DNA of 8,843 nt from assembly GCA_002362595.1 (NCBI GenBank), contig DEUO01000106.1:1-8843 (forward strand), given 5' to 3'. The notes beneath the pieces are model-generated. The model did not search any database and was not told where the DNA came from. It saw nothing but the letters and a program-made list of their open reading frames with translations. Position 1 is the stretch's first letter; every line of letters starts with the position of its first letter. Origin of the DNA: Caryophanales bacterium UBA3260 (GTDB taxonomy: Bacteria > Bacillota_I > Bacilli_A > RF39 > UBA660). Below are positions 3,070 to 7,867 of the stretch, one piece after another. Position numbers and translations under genes: made by a program.

Positions 3070-3642
3070 CTATATATTCTTTATTTCTCTTAATTTTTCC
3101 TTTAAATCTTCTGCTGCTAATCTTCTAGCACTTATAGTATTTTTTTCTTCACTTGTTAATTCTGCTAAGGTACGTCCCTCTAGTAACTCAAAGATATCGT
3201 CAAAACCAAATCCATTTGTTCCCCTTCGGTCTAGTGAAATAATTCCGTCTAAAACACCTTTCCCGACTACTTCATTACTTCCATCATAATAAACTAAATT
3301 ACATACAACTTGAGCTGTTCTATTACTTTCACCAACCATTTTATCTAAAATAGCATTATTTCTATCATCATCAGTTGCATCTTCTCCAACAAATCTATGA
3401 GTCATAACACCAGGCCATCCATTATAAACTAAAATACATAAACCTGAATCATCAGCTATAACTGGTTCTTTAGCTATTTCATATATCTCTTTAGCTTTCT
3501 TTAATGCATTACCATAAAAACTATCTTGATCTTCTACTACATCTATATCTATTCCAGCTTCATCTAAACTCTTTATTTCATATTCATTTAATATATCTTT
3601 TATCTCTCTTAATTTACCTTTATTATTAGTTGCTAATATCAT
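3070..3642 (-). CDS. rdgB: XTP/dITP diphosphatase (RdgB/HAM1 family), divergent
   Basis: Enzymes of this family hydrolyse non-canonical purine triphosphates such as XTP and dITP to the monophosphate and pyrophosphate, cleaning the nucleotide pool. The 190 residues match family length and carry TNNKGK (5-10), NALKKA (45-50), ADDSGL (63-68, with the metal/catalytic Asp pair), GTNGFGFDDIF (141-151) and EEKNTIS (165-171). Two conserved sites are altered: the usual GAPGVYSARY is GWPGVMTHRF, and the substrate-contacting SHR is SAR (171-173). Both lie around the base pocket, so specificity may have shifted. The start has GGAGG at a good distance. It is last in the operon, 44 nt after the regulator gene with no terminator between. 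It may be the housekeeping copy or a specialised one working on the cluster's product. Confidence 0.9.
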   Translation of the reverse strand: MILATNNKGKLREIKDILNEYEIKSLDEAGIDIDVVEDQDSFYGNALKKAKEIYEIAKEPVIADDSGLCILVYNGWPGVMTHRFVGEDATDDDRNNAILDKMVGESNRTAQVVCNLVYYDGSNEVVGKGVLDGIISLDRRGTNGFGFDDIFELLEGRTLAELTSEEKNTISARRLAAEDLKEKLREIKNI

Positions 3643-3686
3643 ATCTCTTCCTCCTATCTATATTCTATCCATAACCTATCTACATA

Positions 3687-4418
3687 TTAAATCCAATCTT
3701 TAACACTATCAGGATTAAATTTATACTTTTGTGAAGGTCTATATCCTTTCTTATCCTCTACTACATCTACTTTAGTACAATATTTAACTATCTTTTTTCT
3801 AAAATTAGATTTATCTACTTTAACATCTTTAATCAATTCATAAACTATCCTTACGTCTTCTAATGTAAATTCATCAGGCAATAATTTAAAACATATATCT
3901 GTACTATCCATTCTAGATCTTAAATGTTTATAAACTATCATCATCTCTAATAAATTCTTTTCCATACCTATATCATCAACTTTTATCTTATGATAATATT
4001 CTAAACTACCTGCTTTAAGTACTTTATCTGTCTTATATTTATAGTTATTATCTCCTACAATTAATTCTTTATCTTCTACTACTCTAAAATCTACTAGGTC
4101 ATAATTATCATCTAACTTTTTTATATTATTTATATTAGTAAGACCCATATACAATATATCTATTCTATTATCACCAAAGAATCTTTTTTCACCTAACGTA
4201 TAAACTTGTTCTAAATGAAATTTATCACTACCAATAATATTTTTTATTTTATTTCTTATATTATCTTTTATTCCCAAATCTTCACTAAACTCACTTCTAA
4301 CAAGCTCCCCAGTTTCTTTATTAATTAATACTTTTAAAGTTTTAATGTCATTCTTCTTTTTATTAGCATTTACTTCATTATCTAAAACAAAAACACATCC
4401 TACTACTGATAAATTCAT
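3687..4418 (-). CDS. nrtR: NrtR-type regulator: Nudix-like domain plus winged helix
   Basis: This 243-residue protein follows the NrtR plan. Residues 1 to about 140 are a Nudix-like sensor with the typical HLEQVYTLGEKRF segment, but the Nudix box is eroded (no GX5EX7REUXEE pattern), so it should bind a ligand rather than hydrolyse it. The C-terminal part has FTLEDVRIVYELI, SNFRKKIVKY and GYRPSQKYKF, the winged-helix and C-terminal signature of the family. NrtR proteins repress NAD synthesis and uptake genes and respond to ADP-ribose-type ligands. I choose the ATG at 4416-4418, because GAGGTG lies 6 nt upstream; a GTG at 4425-4427 would overlap the previous stop but has no ribosome site. The operators at 7791-7852 in front of the same operon are its likely targets. 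Family is confident; ligand is inferred. Confidence 0.83.
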   Translation of the reverse strand: MNLSVVGCVFVLDNEVNANKKKNDIKTLKVLINKETGELVRSEFSEDLGIKDNIRNKIKNIIGSDKFHLEQVYTLGEKRFFGDNRIDILYMGLTNINNIKKLDDNYDLVDFRVVEDKELIVGDNNYKYKTDKVLKAGSLEYYHKIKVDDIGMEKNLLEMMIVYKHLRSRMDSTDICFKLLPDEFTLEDVRIVYELIKDVKVDKSNFRKKIVKYCTKVDVVEDKKGYRPSQKYKFNPDSVKDWI

Positions 4419-4423
4419 TTTTT

Positions 4424-4987
4424 TCACCTCATTATATCTTTTGCAATTCTTAATGATATATTTTTAATAAATAATTCAAACTTATTTACATCAATAAAAT
4501 CTATATTACCACCATTTAAATTATTAATGCTATCTAAATTTAACTTATATTTATCTTCTATTATATTAAAATATCTTGGTATCTTTTCAATAACTTTATT
4601 AATATATTTTAAATCTATTTCAAAATCACTAACTAACATTGCATTTAAGTTCGTATAATCATTATATATCATATTTGCTGAAAATAAATTAATTTTATCA
4701 TAATTTTTAATATTTCTAATTACATATTCATCTAAAAAATATTTATCAAGTAATAAATGACATAAATATCCTTTCTTTATATCCTCATCTATCTTTATTT
4801 CTTTTTTAAATCTTTCTATATCTGGGACTAAATAGTACTCTCCTTTATTTTTATAATGACTATCTTCTATATCAATTACATCAGGTAATATACATCCCAT
4901 ATAAAATTTATCTTTATCACTTACCTTATTTTTTATTTTATCATATACAAGAGAAGCACATCCAAAATGTGCTGCTATACTAGGCAT
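4424..4987 (-). CDS. Zinc phospholipase C/S1-P1-like metal-dependent hydrolase
   Basis: This 187-residue protein resembles the zinc-dependent phospholipase C/S1-P1 nuclease fold. It opens MPSIAAHFG, with a His at position 7 next to the N terminus, then has GCILPD (Asp36), a His at 44, and GYLCHLLLDKYFLDE (His77, Asp81), the His/Asp helix pattern of that fold or of HD-type hydrolases. There is no signal peptide, unlike secreted phospholipases, so a cytoplasmic phosphoester substrate, perhaps a nucleotide, is more likely. Its ATG overlaps the end of the CYTH-kinase gene by 8 nt, with AAAGGA 6 nt upstream, so translation is probably coupled. The fold call rests on motif spacing only and an HD-domain alternative remains possible. 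Confidence 0.6.
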   Translation of the reverse strand: MPSIAAHFGCASLVYDKIKNKVSDKDKFYMGCILPDVIDIEDSHYKNKGEYYLVPDIERFKKEIKIDEDIKKGYLCHLLLDKYFLDEYVIRNIKNYDKINLFSANMIYNDYTNLNAMLVSDFEIDLKYINKVIEKIPRYFNIIEDKYKLNLDSINNLNGGNIDFIDVNKFELFIKNISLRIAKDIMR

Positions 4988-5870
4988 TAATTATCCTTTC
5001 TATCTTTTCAACTTGTTCTTCTAAGGTAAGATTAGTACAATCAACTAAATAAAGTTTATCTTCTGTCATATTCCTATCTTTCATATAATTATATGTATCT
5101 AAATATAATTGATTGTACCTATAAGCTTCTTCATCATATTGACTCAATACTTCTCTTTTATTTATTCTACTTTCTAATTCTTTTTTATCATTATTAACTA
5201 AAAATATTATTTTATTATCTATCTTTTTTAGATATTCTTGATATTTTTTTGTTCTATCTTCCATACTTATATCAAATAACATATTTCTTGATATTACATC
5301 CATACATCTATCTTGACATATAATACCTTTTTTTATTAGTTCCTCAATAGTAACGCTTTTACCTACACCATCTGTTCCTTCTATTATTGTCCCAACAGAT
5401 TTTATACTACCATTATAAATTCCATAATTTTCATATACTTTAGTATTGCTTACTTCTACAAATCCTTTTGGTGGAACATATTCATCAAGAGGAGCTTTAT
5501 CAGTTGAAACTTCTATCATTACCATTTCTACAGGTTCTATAAAACAATCTACATCTATTTCATAAGGTCCATCATTATAATACTTTCTTATTTTTCTAAC
5601 ACATCGACCATTCTCTTTCATTACCTCTAAAAATTCTTCTTCATTACTTTCTCTTACATCAGTAATCTTACTCATCTTATTATTAACAGTATACTTACAA
5701 TCGCCATTATCATTATATCTTCGATATTTATATCCATCTTTATATGTTTGTGTTAATTCATATTCTTCTATTTTTTTCATACTATTAAGATATCTATCTA
5801 AATATTCTTTCTTTGTAGGAATAAACTTCCTTTCTTCATTATTTATCTTACCTAATCTTAATACAACCAT
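4980..5870 (-). CDS. CYTH domain fused to a P-loop, dTMP kinase-like domain
   Basis: This 296-residue protein has two domains. Residues 9-145 look like a CYTH (triphosphate tunnel) domain: NEERKF (11-16, first Glu of ExExK replaced by Asn), YELTQTY, KYRRY, KYTVNNK, EIDVDCF and MIEVSTDKAP, alternating strands rich in Arg, Lys and Glu. Residues 159-296 are a P-loop kinase: EGTDGVGKS (164-172) as in thymidylate kinases, QDR (186-188) and a lid-like ESRINKRE (232-239). CYTH proteins bind or hydrolyse triphosphates with metal ions; thymidylate kinase relatives phosphorylate nucleosides or nucleotides. The gene follows the radical SAM gene by 2 nt, with AAGGAG 8 nt before the ATG. A nucleoside or nucleotide substrate, possibly nicotinamide riboside or a deoxynucleotide, fits the context but is inference. 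Confidence 0.75.
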   Translation of the reverse strand: MVVLRLGKINNEERKFIPTKKEYLDRYLNSMKKIEEYELTQTYKDGYKYRRYNDNGDCKYTVNNKMSKITDVRESNEEEFLEVMKENGRCVRKIRKYYNDGPYEIDVDCFIEPVEMVMIEVSTDKAPLDEYVPPKGFVEVSNTKVYENYGIYNGSIKSVGTIIEGTDGVGKSVTIEELIKKGIICQDRCMDVISRNMLFDISMEDRTKKYQEYLKKIDNKIIFLVNNDKKELESRINKREVLSQYDEEAYRYNQLYLDTYNYMKDRNMTEDKLYLVDCTNLTLEEQVEKIERIINA

Positions 5871-5872
5871 AA

Positions 5873-6706
5873 CTATATCTCCTTCTTTAATACAATATCA
5901 TTTAAATGATAATCTACCAATCTTCCACCATAATAAACGATATTTGAATATCCATAATCTAACTTCTTAGCATAAAAAGTAACAGGAACCCCATTATATA
6001 TCCATTCATATCTATCAAAAAATTTCATATCTTTAGTTACAAAATTAGCATTATTACTCATCCAACTAATAACATTATCAGCATCATCTTTTGTAAGAGC
6101 ATTATCTATAATCCATTTAGAATATTTATTATCTATCTTTCCATCTTTAGTATTTAAATTTAATGTCTTTAAACTAACCGTCTTAATATTTGGATATTCA
6201 TCAATATATTTTTTTATTTCTTCTAAGTATTCCTCAAAACTTTTATTTTTTAACATAACATAATTTAATCTTACATTAGCTTTCTTAAAATTTTCACTAT
6301 TAATATAATCTCTCTTATATCCTAATATCTCCTTATCTTTTTTAGAATCAAAATCACATCTTGTAATTTCTATAATAAAATCATCTTTAATATAATCAAG
6401 TTTTTCATCTTCATAAAATATATTACCAGAAGATTGTAATCTCTTTTCATCAAATATATTTACATTACGAGTAGCATCAGCTATCTTTTTAAAATTTTCA
6501 AAATTAGTTAAAGAAGGTTCTCCATTACCGCACAATATAAAGTATCTAAATGTTATTCCTTCTTTTTTTAGGTATTTTAACTTTTCTTCTAGCATATCTA
6601 AATTATCATCAACCCCAGGCCATTTCGTTATTTTAGCCGTACAATAAGGGCAATTCTTATCACATTTAAATGATGATAATATAAGTTCAAACTCTTTATA
6701 CTTCAT
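5873..6706 (-). CDS. Radical SAM enzyme of unknown specificity
   Basis: This 277-residue protein has the radical SAM cluster motif CDKNCPYC (Cys15, Cys19, Cys22; CX3CX2C), an aromatic residue before the last Cys, and CGNGEP (59-64) in place of the SAM-binding GGEP. A later VRLNYVMLK strand fits the core barrel. There is no second Cys-rich cluster, so no SPASM-type extension. The enzyme would use a [4Fe-4S] cluster to cleave S-adenosylmethionine and start a radical reaction in the cytoplasm. Its ATG overlaps the deoxyribosyltransferase-like gene by 11 nt, and an AGAGG lies 9 nt upstream, so the two are probably translated together. Size and the lack of extra domains suggest a small-molecule substrate; I cannot name it. 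Superfamily is confident, reaction unknown. Confidence 0.85.
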   Translation of the reverse strand: MKYKEFELILSSFKCDKNCPYCTAKITKWPGVDDNLDMLEEKLKYLKKEGITFRYFILCGNGEPSLTNFENFKKIADATRNVNIFDEKRLQSSGNIFYEDEKLDYIKDDFIIEITRCDFDSKKDKEILGYKRDYINSENFKKANVRLNYVMLKNKSFEEYLEEIKKYIDEYPNIKTVSLKTLNLNTKDGKIDNKYSKWIIDNALTKDDADNVISWMSNNANFVTKDMKFFDRYEWIYNGVPVTFYAKKLDYGYSNIVYYGGRLVDYHLNDIVLKKEI

Positions 6707-7211
6707 AACCTAATACCTCTTTTCTTATCATATTAATTGCATCTTTCTTATCACTATATCCATATATCTTTATTTTATTACTTCTCTTAATTGCATCACC
6801 AATTGCAAACCAATAATCAGATTTTATTTTATATTTAGATATTTCTTCTTTATAGTAAATAATAATATCTTTATCTAAATTTAATGCCCATCCTAATTCT
6901 ACTATTGTTCCTACAGAGAAATGTTCATCAAACATTGCAAAGTATATATCACAATCAGCTACTGATTTATATTCTGCATCTAAAACAACATTACAATCTG
7001 TTGATGTATAATCGCCATTAGAAGCTTGTTCACAGTAAAATGGTCCACTATAAACGTATTTATCATTTAATTTTAAATTATCGTCTGCATAAGTCAATTT
7101 CTTAGAATCTCCCAATATAATAGATCTAAAATCATTTACCAACTTTTCTGATAAAGATAATTTGTCATCTTTCTCTAATGTAAATTTGCCAGCAAAATAT
7201 ATTTTTTTCAT
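6696..7211 (-). CDS. Nucleoside 2-deoxyribosyltransferase-like protein
   Basis: This 171-residue protein has the deoxyribosyltransferase/Rcl fold signature: MKKIYFAGKF at the N terminus (nucleotide-binding first strand), YSGPFYCEQ at 54-62, DCDIYFAMFDEHFSVGTIVELGWAL (86-110 region) with Glu105 in the position of the catalytic nucleophile, and a following strand DIIIYYK. Relatives swap the base of deoxynucleosides or hydrolyse N-glycosidic bonds of nucleosides or nucleoside monophosphates. I start it at 7209-7211: AAAGGATG lies upstream at a normal distance and the ATG falls 2 nt after the transporter stop. A longer reading from 7247 would add 12 charged residues absent from the fold. Next to a PnuC-type transporter, it may act on the imported nucleoside. 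Substrate unproven. Confidence 0.78.
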   Translation of the reverse strand: MKKIYFAGKFTLEKDDKLSLSEKLVNDFRSIILGDSKKLTYADDNLKLNDKYVYSGPFYCEQASNGDYTSTDCNVVLDAEYKSVADCDIYFAMFDEHFSVGTIVELGWALNLDKDIIIYYKEEISKYKIKSDYWFAIGDAIKRSNKIKIYGYSDKKDAINMIRKEVLGYEV

Positions 7212-7213
7212 AT

Positions 7214-7774
7214 TTAACATCCTTTTTCTATCATTACTTTTTTCCAATTAATATAAGAACCAACTGCCATAAATGTCCACACAACATTTAGACAAAATAA
7301 GTATAGAGCTTGATCTGGTAAGATAAAGTATTCAATAGCATAAAATATATCATTAACAAACCATATAATCCATGTATCTATTTTCTTAACCATCATATAA
7401 TATGTAGCAACAAAACTAGATACCGTTGTAAATGCATCAAGCAAAGGTAGTGGATCGTCTGTTTTACTTAACACAGCTGCTACTCCAATAGTTCCTAATG
7501 CAATAACAATTAAATATATAATTCTTTCTTTAAAAGAACATTCTCTAATATCATTATTATCTTTACTATTCCAAATAATAAATCCTACTACAGCAACTCC
7601 CAAATAAAACACATTATTTGCAACATCACCATATAACTTCATTGCTAAAGAAAATATTATCATTAATAACATCTGTATCCCATAAGCTATCCAATTACTC
7701 CTTTTATTTAACATCGCAAGTAAACCCTGTAGCAATCCAAATATCGTCGCCCCTATTTCCAAGTATTTTATCAT
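7214..7774 (-). CDS. pnuC: PnuC-family nucleoside/vitamin transporter
   Basis: This 186-residue membrane protein has about seven hydrophobic segments (roughly 4-22, 28-46, 49-68, 84-100, 110-128, 133-152, 156-176), as in the SemiSWEET-like PnuC fold. Typical features are SNWIAYGIQM, YGDVANNVFYLG and DTWIIWFVNDIFYAIEY, with the Trp and Asn residues lining the substrate path. PnuC proteins carry nicotinamide riboside by facilitated diffusion driven by phosphorylation inside the cell; relatives carry thiamine, riboflavin or deoxynucleosides. An NrtR-type regulator in the same operon favours a nicotinamide-type substrate, whereas the deoxyribosyltransferase neighbour would fit a deoxynucleoside. 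It is the first gene of the operon, with AAGGAGG 7 nt before the ATG. Transporter family is confident, substrate not. Confidence 0.88.
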   Translation of the reverse strand: MIKYLEIGATIFGLLQGLLAMLNKRSNWIAYGIQMLLMIIFSLAMKLYGDVANNVFYLGVAVVGFIIWNSKDNNDIRECSFKERIIYLIVIALGTIGVAAVLSKTDDPLPLLDAFTTVSSFVATYYMMVKKIDTWIIWFVNDIFYAIEYFILPDQALYLFCLNVVWTFMAVGSYINWKKVMIEKGC

Positions 7775-7786
7775 TCTATCTCCTCC

Positions 7787-7815
7787 TTACATATAGTATA
7801 TTAAACCATATGTAA
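7787..7815. repeat. 8-bp inverted repeat over the -10 of the pnuC promoter
   Basis: TTACATAT (7787-7794) and ATATGTAA (7808-7815) form a perfect inverted repeat with 13 bp between, so the arm centres are 21 bp apart (two helical turns). It straddles the -10 box and overlaps the imperfect operator, so it could be an alternative reading of the same regulatory site. Confidence 0.5.
7791..7811. promoter_or_regulatory. Imperfect operator over the -10 of the pnuC promoter
   Basis: TATAGTA (7792-7798), 5 bp, then AACCATA (7804-7810) keeps the layout of the perfect palindrome 41 bp upstream, with 5 of 7 bases matching in the second arm. Its 5-bp centre lies inside the -10 box, so a bound regulator would block RNA polymerase. 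Confidence 0.5.
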
Positions 7816-7826
7816 TAATTTGTCAA
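7798..7826 (-). promoter_or_regulatory. Promoter of the pnuC operon
   Basis: On the minus strand TTGACA (7821-7826) is a perfect -35 and TAATAT (7798-7803) a good -10, separated by 17 bp. Transcription would start near 7790, just upstream of the AAGGAGG ribosome site and pnuC start. No other convincing promoter or terminator is visible within the next six genes. Confidence 0.8.
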
Positions 7827-7831
7827 TACTT

Positions 7832-7852
7832 TTATAGTATCTTTTACTATAA
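7832..7852. promoter_or_regulatory. 21-bp palindromic operator upstream of the pnuC -35
   Basis: TTATAGTA, 5 bp, TACTATAA is a perfect palindrome ending 6 bp before the -35 box. A palindrome of this size suits a dimeric winged-helix regulator, and the NrtR-type protein encoded in this operon is the obvious candidate. Confidence 0.65.
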
Positions 7853-7867
7853 GTTATATTAATTCAT

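Follow-up and report, generated by a model that had tools for sequence, protein, structure and literature searches.

A conserved PnuC, N-glycosidase-like and radical SAM gene set with a possible role in NAD-linked nucleoside salvage

The window, an 8,843-nt stretch of DNA from Caryophanales bacterium UBA3260, carries an operon of seven genes, all on the minus strand and spanning positions 3070–7774 in its table of open reading frames (ORFs). They encode a PnuC-family transporter, a nucleotide N-glycosidase-like protein, a radical S-adenosylmethionine (rSAM) enzyme, a kinase-like protein, a putative hydrolase, an NrtR-type regulator and RdgB (Table 1). Comparison with other genomes shows that the first three form a conserved, patchily distributed core, preceded by tandem palindromes in some Firmicutes or by a leader RNA in Alphaproteobacteria. 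From these comparisons we give about even odds (a probability of ≈0.5) that the operon serves the salvage, linked to nicotinamide adenine dinucleotide (NAD), of an imported nucleoside. The best evidence for the NAD link is alphaproteobacterial: a NadM paralogue and a leader accompany the cassette, and a related leader precedes a NAD salvage operon in two genomes. The original prediction, made from the window alone, had proposed an undescribed nucleoside or NAD-precursor salvage system; no description of the cluster was found in the open PMC literature, outside of which most subscription papers fall.

The conserved core and its partners

Genome contigs were scanned with an rSAM profile, yielding 36 loci that by record title belong to Bacilli, Clostridia, Alphaproteobacteria and some others. 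The tally was restricted to the 31 loci with an rSAM match of at least 200 bits, and neighbours were counted on the same strand with gaps of 150 nt or less. PnuC, the glycosidase and rSAM occurred together in 30 of the 31 loci. PnuC lay at most three genes upstream of rSAM in 30 (with one additional ORF in between in L029), while the glycosidase was adjacent to rSAM in 25 and fused to it in five, for example in L025. The 11-nt overlap of these two genes in the window was repeated in several loci. The exception to the core, L027, which is included in the tally, is a 6.9 kb contig of Candidatus Uhrbacteria with two tandem rSAM cousins (3688–5530) and no PnuC or glycosidase match on the contig.

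The other genes are less regular. The kinase was present in the same operon chain in 15 of the 31 loci, RdgB in 12, NrtR in 11 and the phospholipase C (PLC) family in three; in L007, the kinase and NrtR read as a single 557-aa ORF that was counted as both. A DUF5662/DHH-like group (c3) was found in 15. Members of the hydrolase family also occur in L002, L005 and L006, and by our own reading there are longer PLC-like proteins in L001 and the c9 loci. The complete gene order of the window was repeated in L002 and, with the longer PLC-like protein, in L001, but elsewhere four of the genes come and go. The constant unit is thus one of three genes, and the kinase, RdgB and NrtR are frequent partners rather than constant members. 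Beside the cassette, upstream of pnuC, L010 and L011 carry a CoaE-like kinase (in L011, TIGR00152 at 99.4 versus a cut-off of 65.55 bits) and a CoaD-like nucleotidyltransferase (87 bits, under the cut-off of 103.3).

Within one order, four of 193 genomes carry the cassette, in two cases in its fused form, and within another, three of 125, plus one decayed partial copy; additional weak matches, in three and two genomes of the respective orders, were taken as other rSAM proteins. The decayed copy (G230:C12:2428-2802, L052) is a partial rSAM gene with two stop codons, possibly a sign of recent loss in Alphaproteobacteria. In a tree of 37 rSAM rows, most alphaproteobacterial rows group together. 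The rSAM of L021, from a Gastranaerophilales metagenome-assembled genome (MAG), is 97.8% identical to that of alphaproteobacterial L023, with the same gene order, suggesting that L021 is probably mis-binned; it is still counted among the 31 loci and the 30 genomes used below. We read the patchy spread as the likely outcome of horizontal transfer and loss. The cassette is mostly found in MAGs whose sample names refer to animal guts and in genomes of 1.0–2.2 Mb, and this spread across phyla in small gut genomes hints that its carriers compete for a nucleoside derived from the host or its diet.

By sequence, the transporter belongs to the PnuC family. PnuC exceeds the cut-offs of the NCBIfam equivalog TIGR01528 (65.8 versus 42.45 bits) and of PF04973 (132 versus 27.3 bits), and its sole PDB sequence match at E ≤0.01 is the nicotinamide riboside (NR) transporter 4qtn (E = 2.1e-10). 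PnuT, PnuX and PnuN are described in PMC7749635 as PnuC relatives with substrates other than NR.

The rSAM protein has 284 homologues at E ≤0.001. Its CX3CX2C motif (residues 15–22) and the best fold matches of its AlphaFold2 model (predicted local distance difference test score, pLDDT, 86.5), which are rSAM enzymes (close ones include MoaA, SuiB and viperin), bear out the assignment, though the Pfam score of 24.9 bits is below the cut-off of 29.5. Cys 15, 19 and 22 are invariant in 39 of 39 aligned sequences, and no other Cys is. No relatives were found in phage or plasmid records (tblastn, E ≤0.01), and a scan of viral contigs gave only distant cousins (24–33% identity). One of these (28% over ≈103 residues; L039, 10001–14012) lies less than 3 kb from two genes of interest, one encoding NAPRT (TIGR01514, 455.8 bits) and the other weakly nicotinamidase-like. 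A defence system was considered and rejected: PADLOC gave only one weak match, between the kinase protein and mad8 (E = 0.005), and the tblastn searches gave no phage or plasmid relative of the rSAM.

The second core gene had been called deoxyribosyltransferase-like (DRT), with base exchange or hydrolysis proposed as the step after import. However, its product misses the cut-off of Nuc_deoxyrib_tr (PF05014, 26.1 versus 28.8 bits, E = 9.8e-6), and its closest relatives by both profile and fold are nucleoside-monophosphate N-glycosidases. The best PDB profile match was BcmB (4jen, E = 4.7e-9), with MilB at 5e-5; when its AlphaFold2 model (pLDDT 89) was used in fold searches, Foldseek ranked BcmB and MilB at the top and VIA ranked DNPH1 at the top. 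The spacing S99-x-G101-x3-E105 matches S97/G99/E103 of MilB, comprising the phosphate-site Ser and Gly and the Glu nucleophile, although L034 has Thr in place of the phosphate-site Ser, which is thus not fully invariant. By sequence and model, a DNPH1/MilB-type nucleotide N-glycosidase is the better reading of the protein, and since it resembles enzymes acting on nucleoside monophosphates, cleavage of a 5'-nucleotide appears likelier than base exchange on a nucleoside.

Of the remaining proteins, RdgB passes the TIGR00042 equivalog cut-off (157.3 versus 145.35 bits), as anticipated. The PLC/S1-like hydrolase resembles Zn_dep_PLPC (PF00882), but at 20.9 bits it falls beneath the cut-off of 26.8, which makes this a weak assignment. 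The kinase protein has 181 homologues at E ≤0.001, the closest named one being P0123 from a 'Bacilli bacterium' MAG (90% identity). Its Walker A motif, EGTDGVGKS, starts at residue 164, consistent with the P-loop kinase part of the earlier CYTH–kinase assignment. The CYTH part did not fare as well: Pfam, NCBIfam and PDB sequence searches returned no CYTH match, Pfam and NCBIfam gave no family over its cut-off, and the label comes from our reading of an N-terminal N-x-E-x-K (residues 11–15), where the CYTH motif is E-x-E-x-K. No kinase relatives were found in phage records (tblastn, E ≤0.01).

Palindromes and a leader RNA before the cassette

The regulator matches the NrtR winged helix PF21906 (55.5 versus a cut-off of 27 bits), and profile matches over its C-terminal part include AraR (5bs6, E = 3e-16) and NadQ (7q91, E = 5.9e-12). 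It does not reach the NrtR equivalog NF050029 (42.2 versus 400 bits). A pair of palindromes, ACWTATRGT-N7-ACYATAWGT, precedes pnuC in the window and in L001, L002, L003 and L019. One lies just upstream of TTGACA and the other over the −10 region, so that TTGACA (TTGACT in L019) sits between them in all five; the spacing is 41 bp in the window and in genomes G001, G002 and G003, and 42 bp in G019. At least two matches with up to three mismatches were found in three of 200 shuffles, a figure to be read with the motif's partial derivation from the window in mind. A variant pair, 67 bp apart, precedes the first operon gene in L004, L006 and L007, and single such sites are found in L005 and L008; where it was aligned, NrtR of L004, L006 and L007 proved divergent (29% in L004 and in L006). 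The recurrence of the palindromes before pnuC in the window and its four relatives suggests that the NrtR-like protein binds them and acts as a local regulator.

In the alphaproteobacterial version of the cassette, the gene order is c7 (NadM-like), c8, DUF5662-like, PnuC, glycosidase and rSAM, with an OprB-like porin added in five loci. The c8 protein is an F420_ligase (PF01996, 159 bits) and is present in seven of the eight loci, L012 being the exception. The c7 protein matches PDB entries 1f9a (E = 2.4e-11) and the nicotinamide mononucleotide (NMN) adenylyltransferase 1ej2 (E = 7.7e-9); in L020 it shares 45% identity with the second NadM in genome G020, while tblastn found no second copies of the remaining cassette genes in the fetched G020 DNA. 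In all eight alphaproteobacterial-type loci (seven so labelled, and L021), c7 is located behind a leader of ≈115–123 nt. The leader consists of a hairpin with the conserved loop GAGGGC, a second stem and a final hairpin apparently masking the ribosome-binding site; TTTTTTTATG comes next.

A covariance model of the leader (R1) was searched against 1,734,526 bases of G020, which is all but two short contig ends. The best match was the cassette operon itself (115.7 bits, E = 1.5e-26). The next best, with 31.5 bits and E = 7.5e-5, immediately precedes nadM-pncA-pncB-nadE, at the start codon of a NadM-like gene that is followed by nicotinamidase-like, NAPRT and NadE-like ORFs (NAPRT, TIGR01513, 444.8 versus 297.4 bits; the nicotinamidase-like ORF is weak, at 21.5 bits). 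In G014, from which 3 kb were fetched as a second-genome test, the leader is once more found in front of nadM (39 bits, E = 1.5e-9), with pncA-like, NAPRT and NadE genes (NadE, TIGR00552, 211 versus 63.65 bits) ≈4 kb from the cassette. An alignment of ten leader sequences, fitted to the model, has 95.1% of its cells paired, and both sides vary in 21 of the 29 pairs, compared to a mean of 7.6 in shuffles and none as high in 500, although the fitting inflates this figure. Searched by E-value, the leaders of L020 and L023 had no Rfam match near threshold (best E = 0.88), and no riboswitch, only one tRNA, was found in 11 loci at the Rfam gathering threshold. We consider the leader a candidate riboswitch; knowing its ligand would reveal which metabolite the cassette handles.

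A proposed NAD-linked salvage pathway and its alternatives

In the pathway that we propose, PnuC would import a nucleoside, either NR or a modified relative, which would be phosphorylated and thereby trapped by the CYTH-like kinase, where present, or by another enzyme elsewhere. The DNPH1/MilB-like enzyme would use its Glu nucleophile to cleave the N-glycosidic bond of the 5'-mononucleotide, releasing free base and sugar phosphate, and the rSAM would alter the base or the nucleotide, passing material to or from the glycosidase. The fusion of these two proteins suggests that the radical conversion is coupled to nucleotide cleavage. The freed pyridine-type base could then enter the nicotinamidase, NAPRT, NadM and NadE route of the host. 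Stray triphosphates would be removed by RdgB and perhaps by the CYTH-like domain, and a shortage of NAD-type metabolites would turn the cassette on by way of the NrtR-type repressor or the leader RNA. The NAD theme of the original prediction is upheld by PnuC, by the NrtR/AraR/NadQ-type regulator, by the NadM paralogue and by the leader shared with a NAD operon. Its conserved gene set stands, but the constant unit is smaller than seven genes, and base exchange is less likely than nucleotide cleavage.

Several observations weigh against this pathway. The kinase is missing from 16 of the 31 operons. A palindrome search of G001, G002, G003 and G019 led to no NAD gene and no second target; matches outside the operon with up to two mismatches numbered 0, 0, 2 and 1, respectively, all within ORFs not recognisable as NAD genes. 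The totals per genome (2, 2, 4 and 3) did not exceed those of a backward control (2, 3, 2 and 4), and the evidence from the palindromes is therefore their repeated place and spacing, not their number. In the Firmicute loci, four G020 queries (one of them partial) detected no NAD genes by tblastn, and R1 had no match in the window, in the Firmicute loci or in L018, a locus labelled Rickettsiales that has NrtR and lacks the leader and c7. In the part of G023 that was searched, the second R1 match (25.8 bits) is mainly the terminal hairpin, with no NadM adjacent. The c7 of L020 is below the NCBIfam NMN adenylyltransferase cut-offs (best 75.6 versus 127 bits). Furthermore, leader and nadM may be one duplicated unit; since the leader possibly arrived with the duplicated nadM, the two count as a single line of evidence. 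Tyr5 of the glycosidase occupies the position of Phe17 in ribo-specific MilB, which predicts a deoxyribo substrate. Finally, G020 and G014 already have a niacin route, so that the cassette is dispensable for NAD there.

One alternative is a pathway for the sanitation or salvage of modified deoxynucleotides, in which the DNPH1-like enzyme would destroy or recycle an odd deoxynucleoside monophosphate, RdgB and the CYTH-like domain would remove odd (deoxy)nucleoside triphosphates and a TMPK-like kinase would act on the deoxynucleoside, while PnuC imports deoxynucleosides as PnuN does. We consider this unlikely, as it leaves the NrtR-type regulator, the NadM paralogue and the leader common to the NAD operon unexplained and does not account for the radical step, and RdgB is missing from 19 of the 31 operons. 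Distinctly less probable is queuosine (Q) salvage, in which PnuC would import queuosine, the glycosidase would free queuine and the rSAM would convert it to preQ1, in parallel to the QueT-QueK-QueL scheme for queuine salvage in C. difficile. Searches of 30 cassette genomes, covering all of the 36 loci except L027, L031, L032, L033, L035 and L036, found TGT in 29, QueA in 28, QueH in 30, QueF in one, QueT in none and the YhhQ family over cut-off in eight, a profile that would suit such a role. QueC was over cut-off in 18, exceeding 100 bits in only two (one being the L021 genome), and the remaining matches are probably other PP-loop enzymes. Many gut Q users lack known transporters, according to PMC11130926, which also mentions QueK, QueL and QueT. 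However, among 193 genomes from one order, only four of which carry the cassette, 174 have QueH and none has QueT; the same profile is common without the cassette and is thus uninformative. Queuosine salvage was demoted as a lead for this reason, and because QueL (6p78) had no special rank in the fold search.

A role in producing some nucleoside natural product or an antivitamin (mildiomycin, bacimethrin or blasticidin-like), for which a nucleotide glycosidase could supply the free base, is very improbable: the core is headed by an importer, the annotated recurrent neighbours include no exporter, resistance or tailoring gene, and the cassette is kept in genomes as small as those noted above. 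That the genes are unrelated and adjacent by chance is scarcely credible. This reading could draw on the four genes present in only some loci, and the original prediction had accepted it in the event that the genes were never found together elsewhere. Instead, all seven recur together in L002, and for the core a chance neighbourhood is refuted, judging from its conservation across phyla, the gene fusion, the overlap and the palindromes at conserved spacing.

Returning to NAD-linked salvage, a more specific version is a rather long shot. The rSAM pathway might recover NAD precursors from a pyridine nucleoside that has been damaged or modified, such as one of the oxidised pyridone ribosides that animals excrete. 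This nucleoside would be cut as the nucleotide and its base mended by radical chemistry; control would lie with a local repressor in Firmicutes and, in Alphaproteobacteria, with a riboswitch of a new NAD-type class. An rSAM enzyme in NAD-type salvage would, to our knowledge, represent new chemistry for vitamin B3 metabolism.

Layout of the window and related systems

The ORF positions and strand are as first noted, apart from the start of the glycosidase, which is corrected to the ATG at 7211. The DRT and rSAM genes overlap by 11 nt and the kinase and PLC genes by 8 nt, while gaps range from 2 nt, between pnuC and the glycosidase, to 44 nt. It is plausible that a single promoter drives all seven genes, as originally proposed: a consensus match precedes pnuC, but there is also a terminator-like match within the operon at 4973–4955 (one found versus 0.4 expected). 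Promoter-like matches in the window (69) are not in excess of the 74.6 expected from shuffles.

Table 1. Features of the operon and its control regions, with the leader RNAs of other loci.
Feature	Position	Strand	Remarks
PnuC-family nucleoside transporter	7214..7774	-	186 aa; operon's first gene
Nucleoside-5'-monophosphate N-glycosidase-like (DNPH1/MilB type; "DRT")	6696..7211	-	171 aa from ATG
Radical SAM enzyme (rSAM)	5873..6706	-	277 aa
CYTH-like domain fused to P-loop kinase-like domain	4980..5870	-	296 aa
Zn-dependent phospholipase C / S1-P1-like hydrolase	4424..4987	-	weak assignment
NrtR/AraR/NadQ-type transcription factor	3687..4427	-	GTG start; alternative ATG at 4418
RdgB/Ham1 non-canonical purine NTP pyrophosphatase	3070..3642	-	TIGR00042
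Promoter TTGACA-17-TAATAT	7798..7826 (7826 to 7798)	-	consensus match 5' of pnuC
Candidate operator 2	7789..7813		palindrome ACATATAGT-N7-ACCATATGT over -10 region; 0 mismatches
Candidate operator 1	7830..7854		5' of -35; 41 bp to operator 2; 2 mismatches
Leader RNA	L020 6487-6602; counterparts L012, L013, L014, L016, L021, L023, L024		before cassette
Leader RNA	L121 3183-3322; L193 1161-1286	-	before NAD salvage operon

Downstream of rdgB, 346 nt on the minus strand (2600–2945) fold very strongly, with a minimum free energy of −117.8 kcal/mol (z = −8.8, compared to only −2.0 for the opposite strand) and, by eye, a terminator-like hairpin at the 3' end. There was no Rfam match near threshold and no plasmid match for this segment, which is likely a structured RNA of no recognised class; an Rfam scan of the window gave nothing credible, only a single chance-level snoRNA match. 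Further along the minus strand are a 351-aa ORF (1394–2449) with a metalloprotease-like HELGH motif, noted by eye, and no Pfam or NCBIfam match, and a SocA/Panacea antitoxin-like protein (422–874; PF13274, 80.4 bits).

The cassette can be compared to four known systems. NAD salvage regulons pair PnuC with NrtR (NadR/NadM/NrtR-pnuC), and the cassette likewise has both, together with the NadM paralogue in Alphaproteobacteria; it differs in adding the N-glycosidase-like protein and rSAM, and in palindromes that, across four genomes, reach none of the NAD genes. With the QueT-QueK-QueL system of C. difficile it shares the logic of an importer, a base-releasing enzyme and an rSAM acting on the base, but its transporter and nucleosidase are from other families and its rSAM is not especially close to QueL. 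DNPH1/RCL and MilB/BcmB/BlsM have the fold, the spacing to the Glu nucleophile and the phosphate Ser/Gly in common with the cassette glycosidase. However, the identity is just 10–19% among the structural matches from this family, an invariant Glu (Glu80) apparently replaces the general-acid Asp in the HMMER alignment with 4jen, and the cassette enzyme is coupled to rSAM in an operon or by fusion. The NAD+-I (nadA motif) and NAD+-II (pnuC motif) riboswitches are, like the alphaproteobacterial leader, leader RNAs tied to pnuC or NAD metabolism, a link that PMC7749635 gives for NAD+-II; unlike them, the leader, as searched in L020 and L023, has no Rfam match over threshold.

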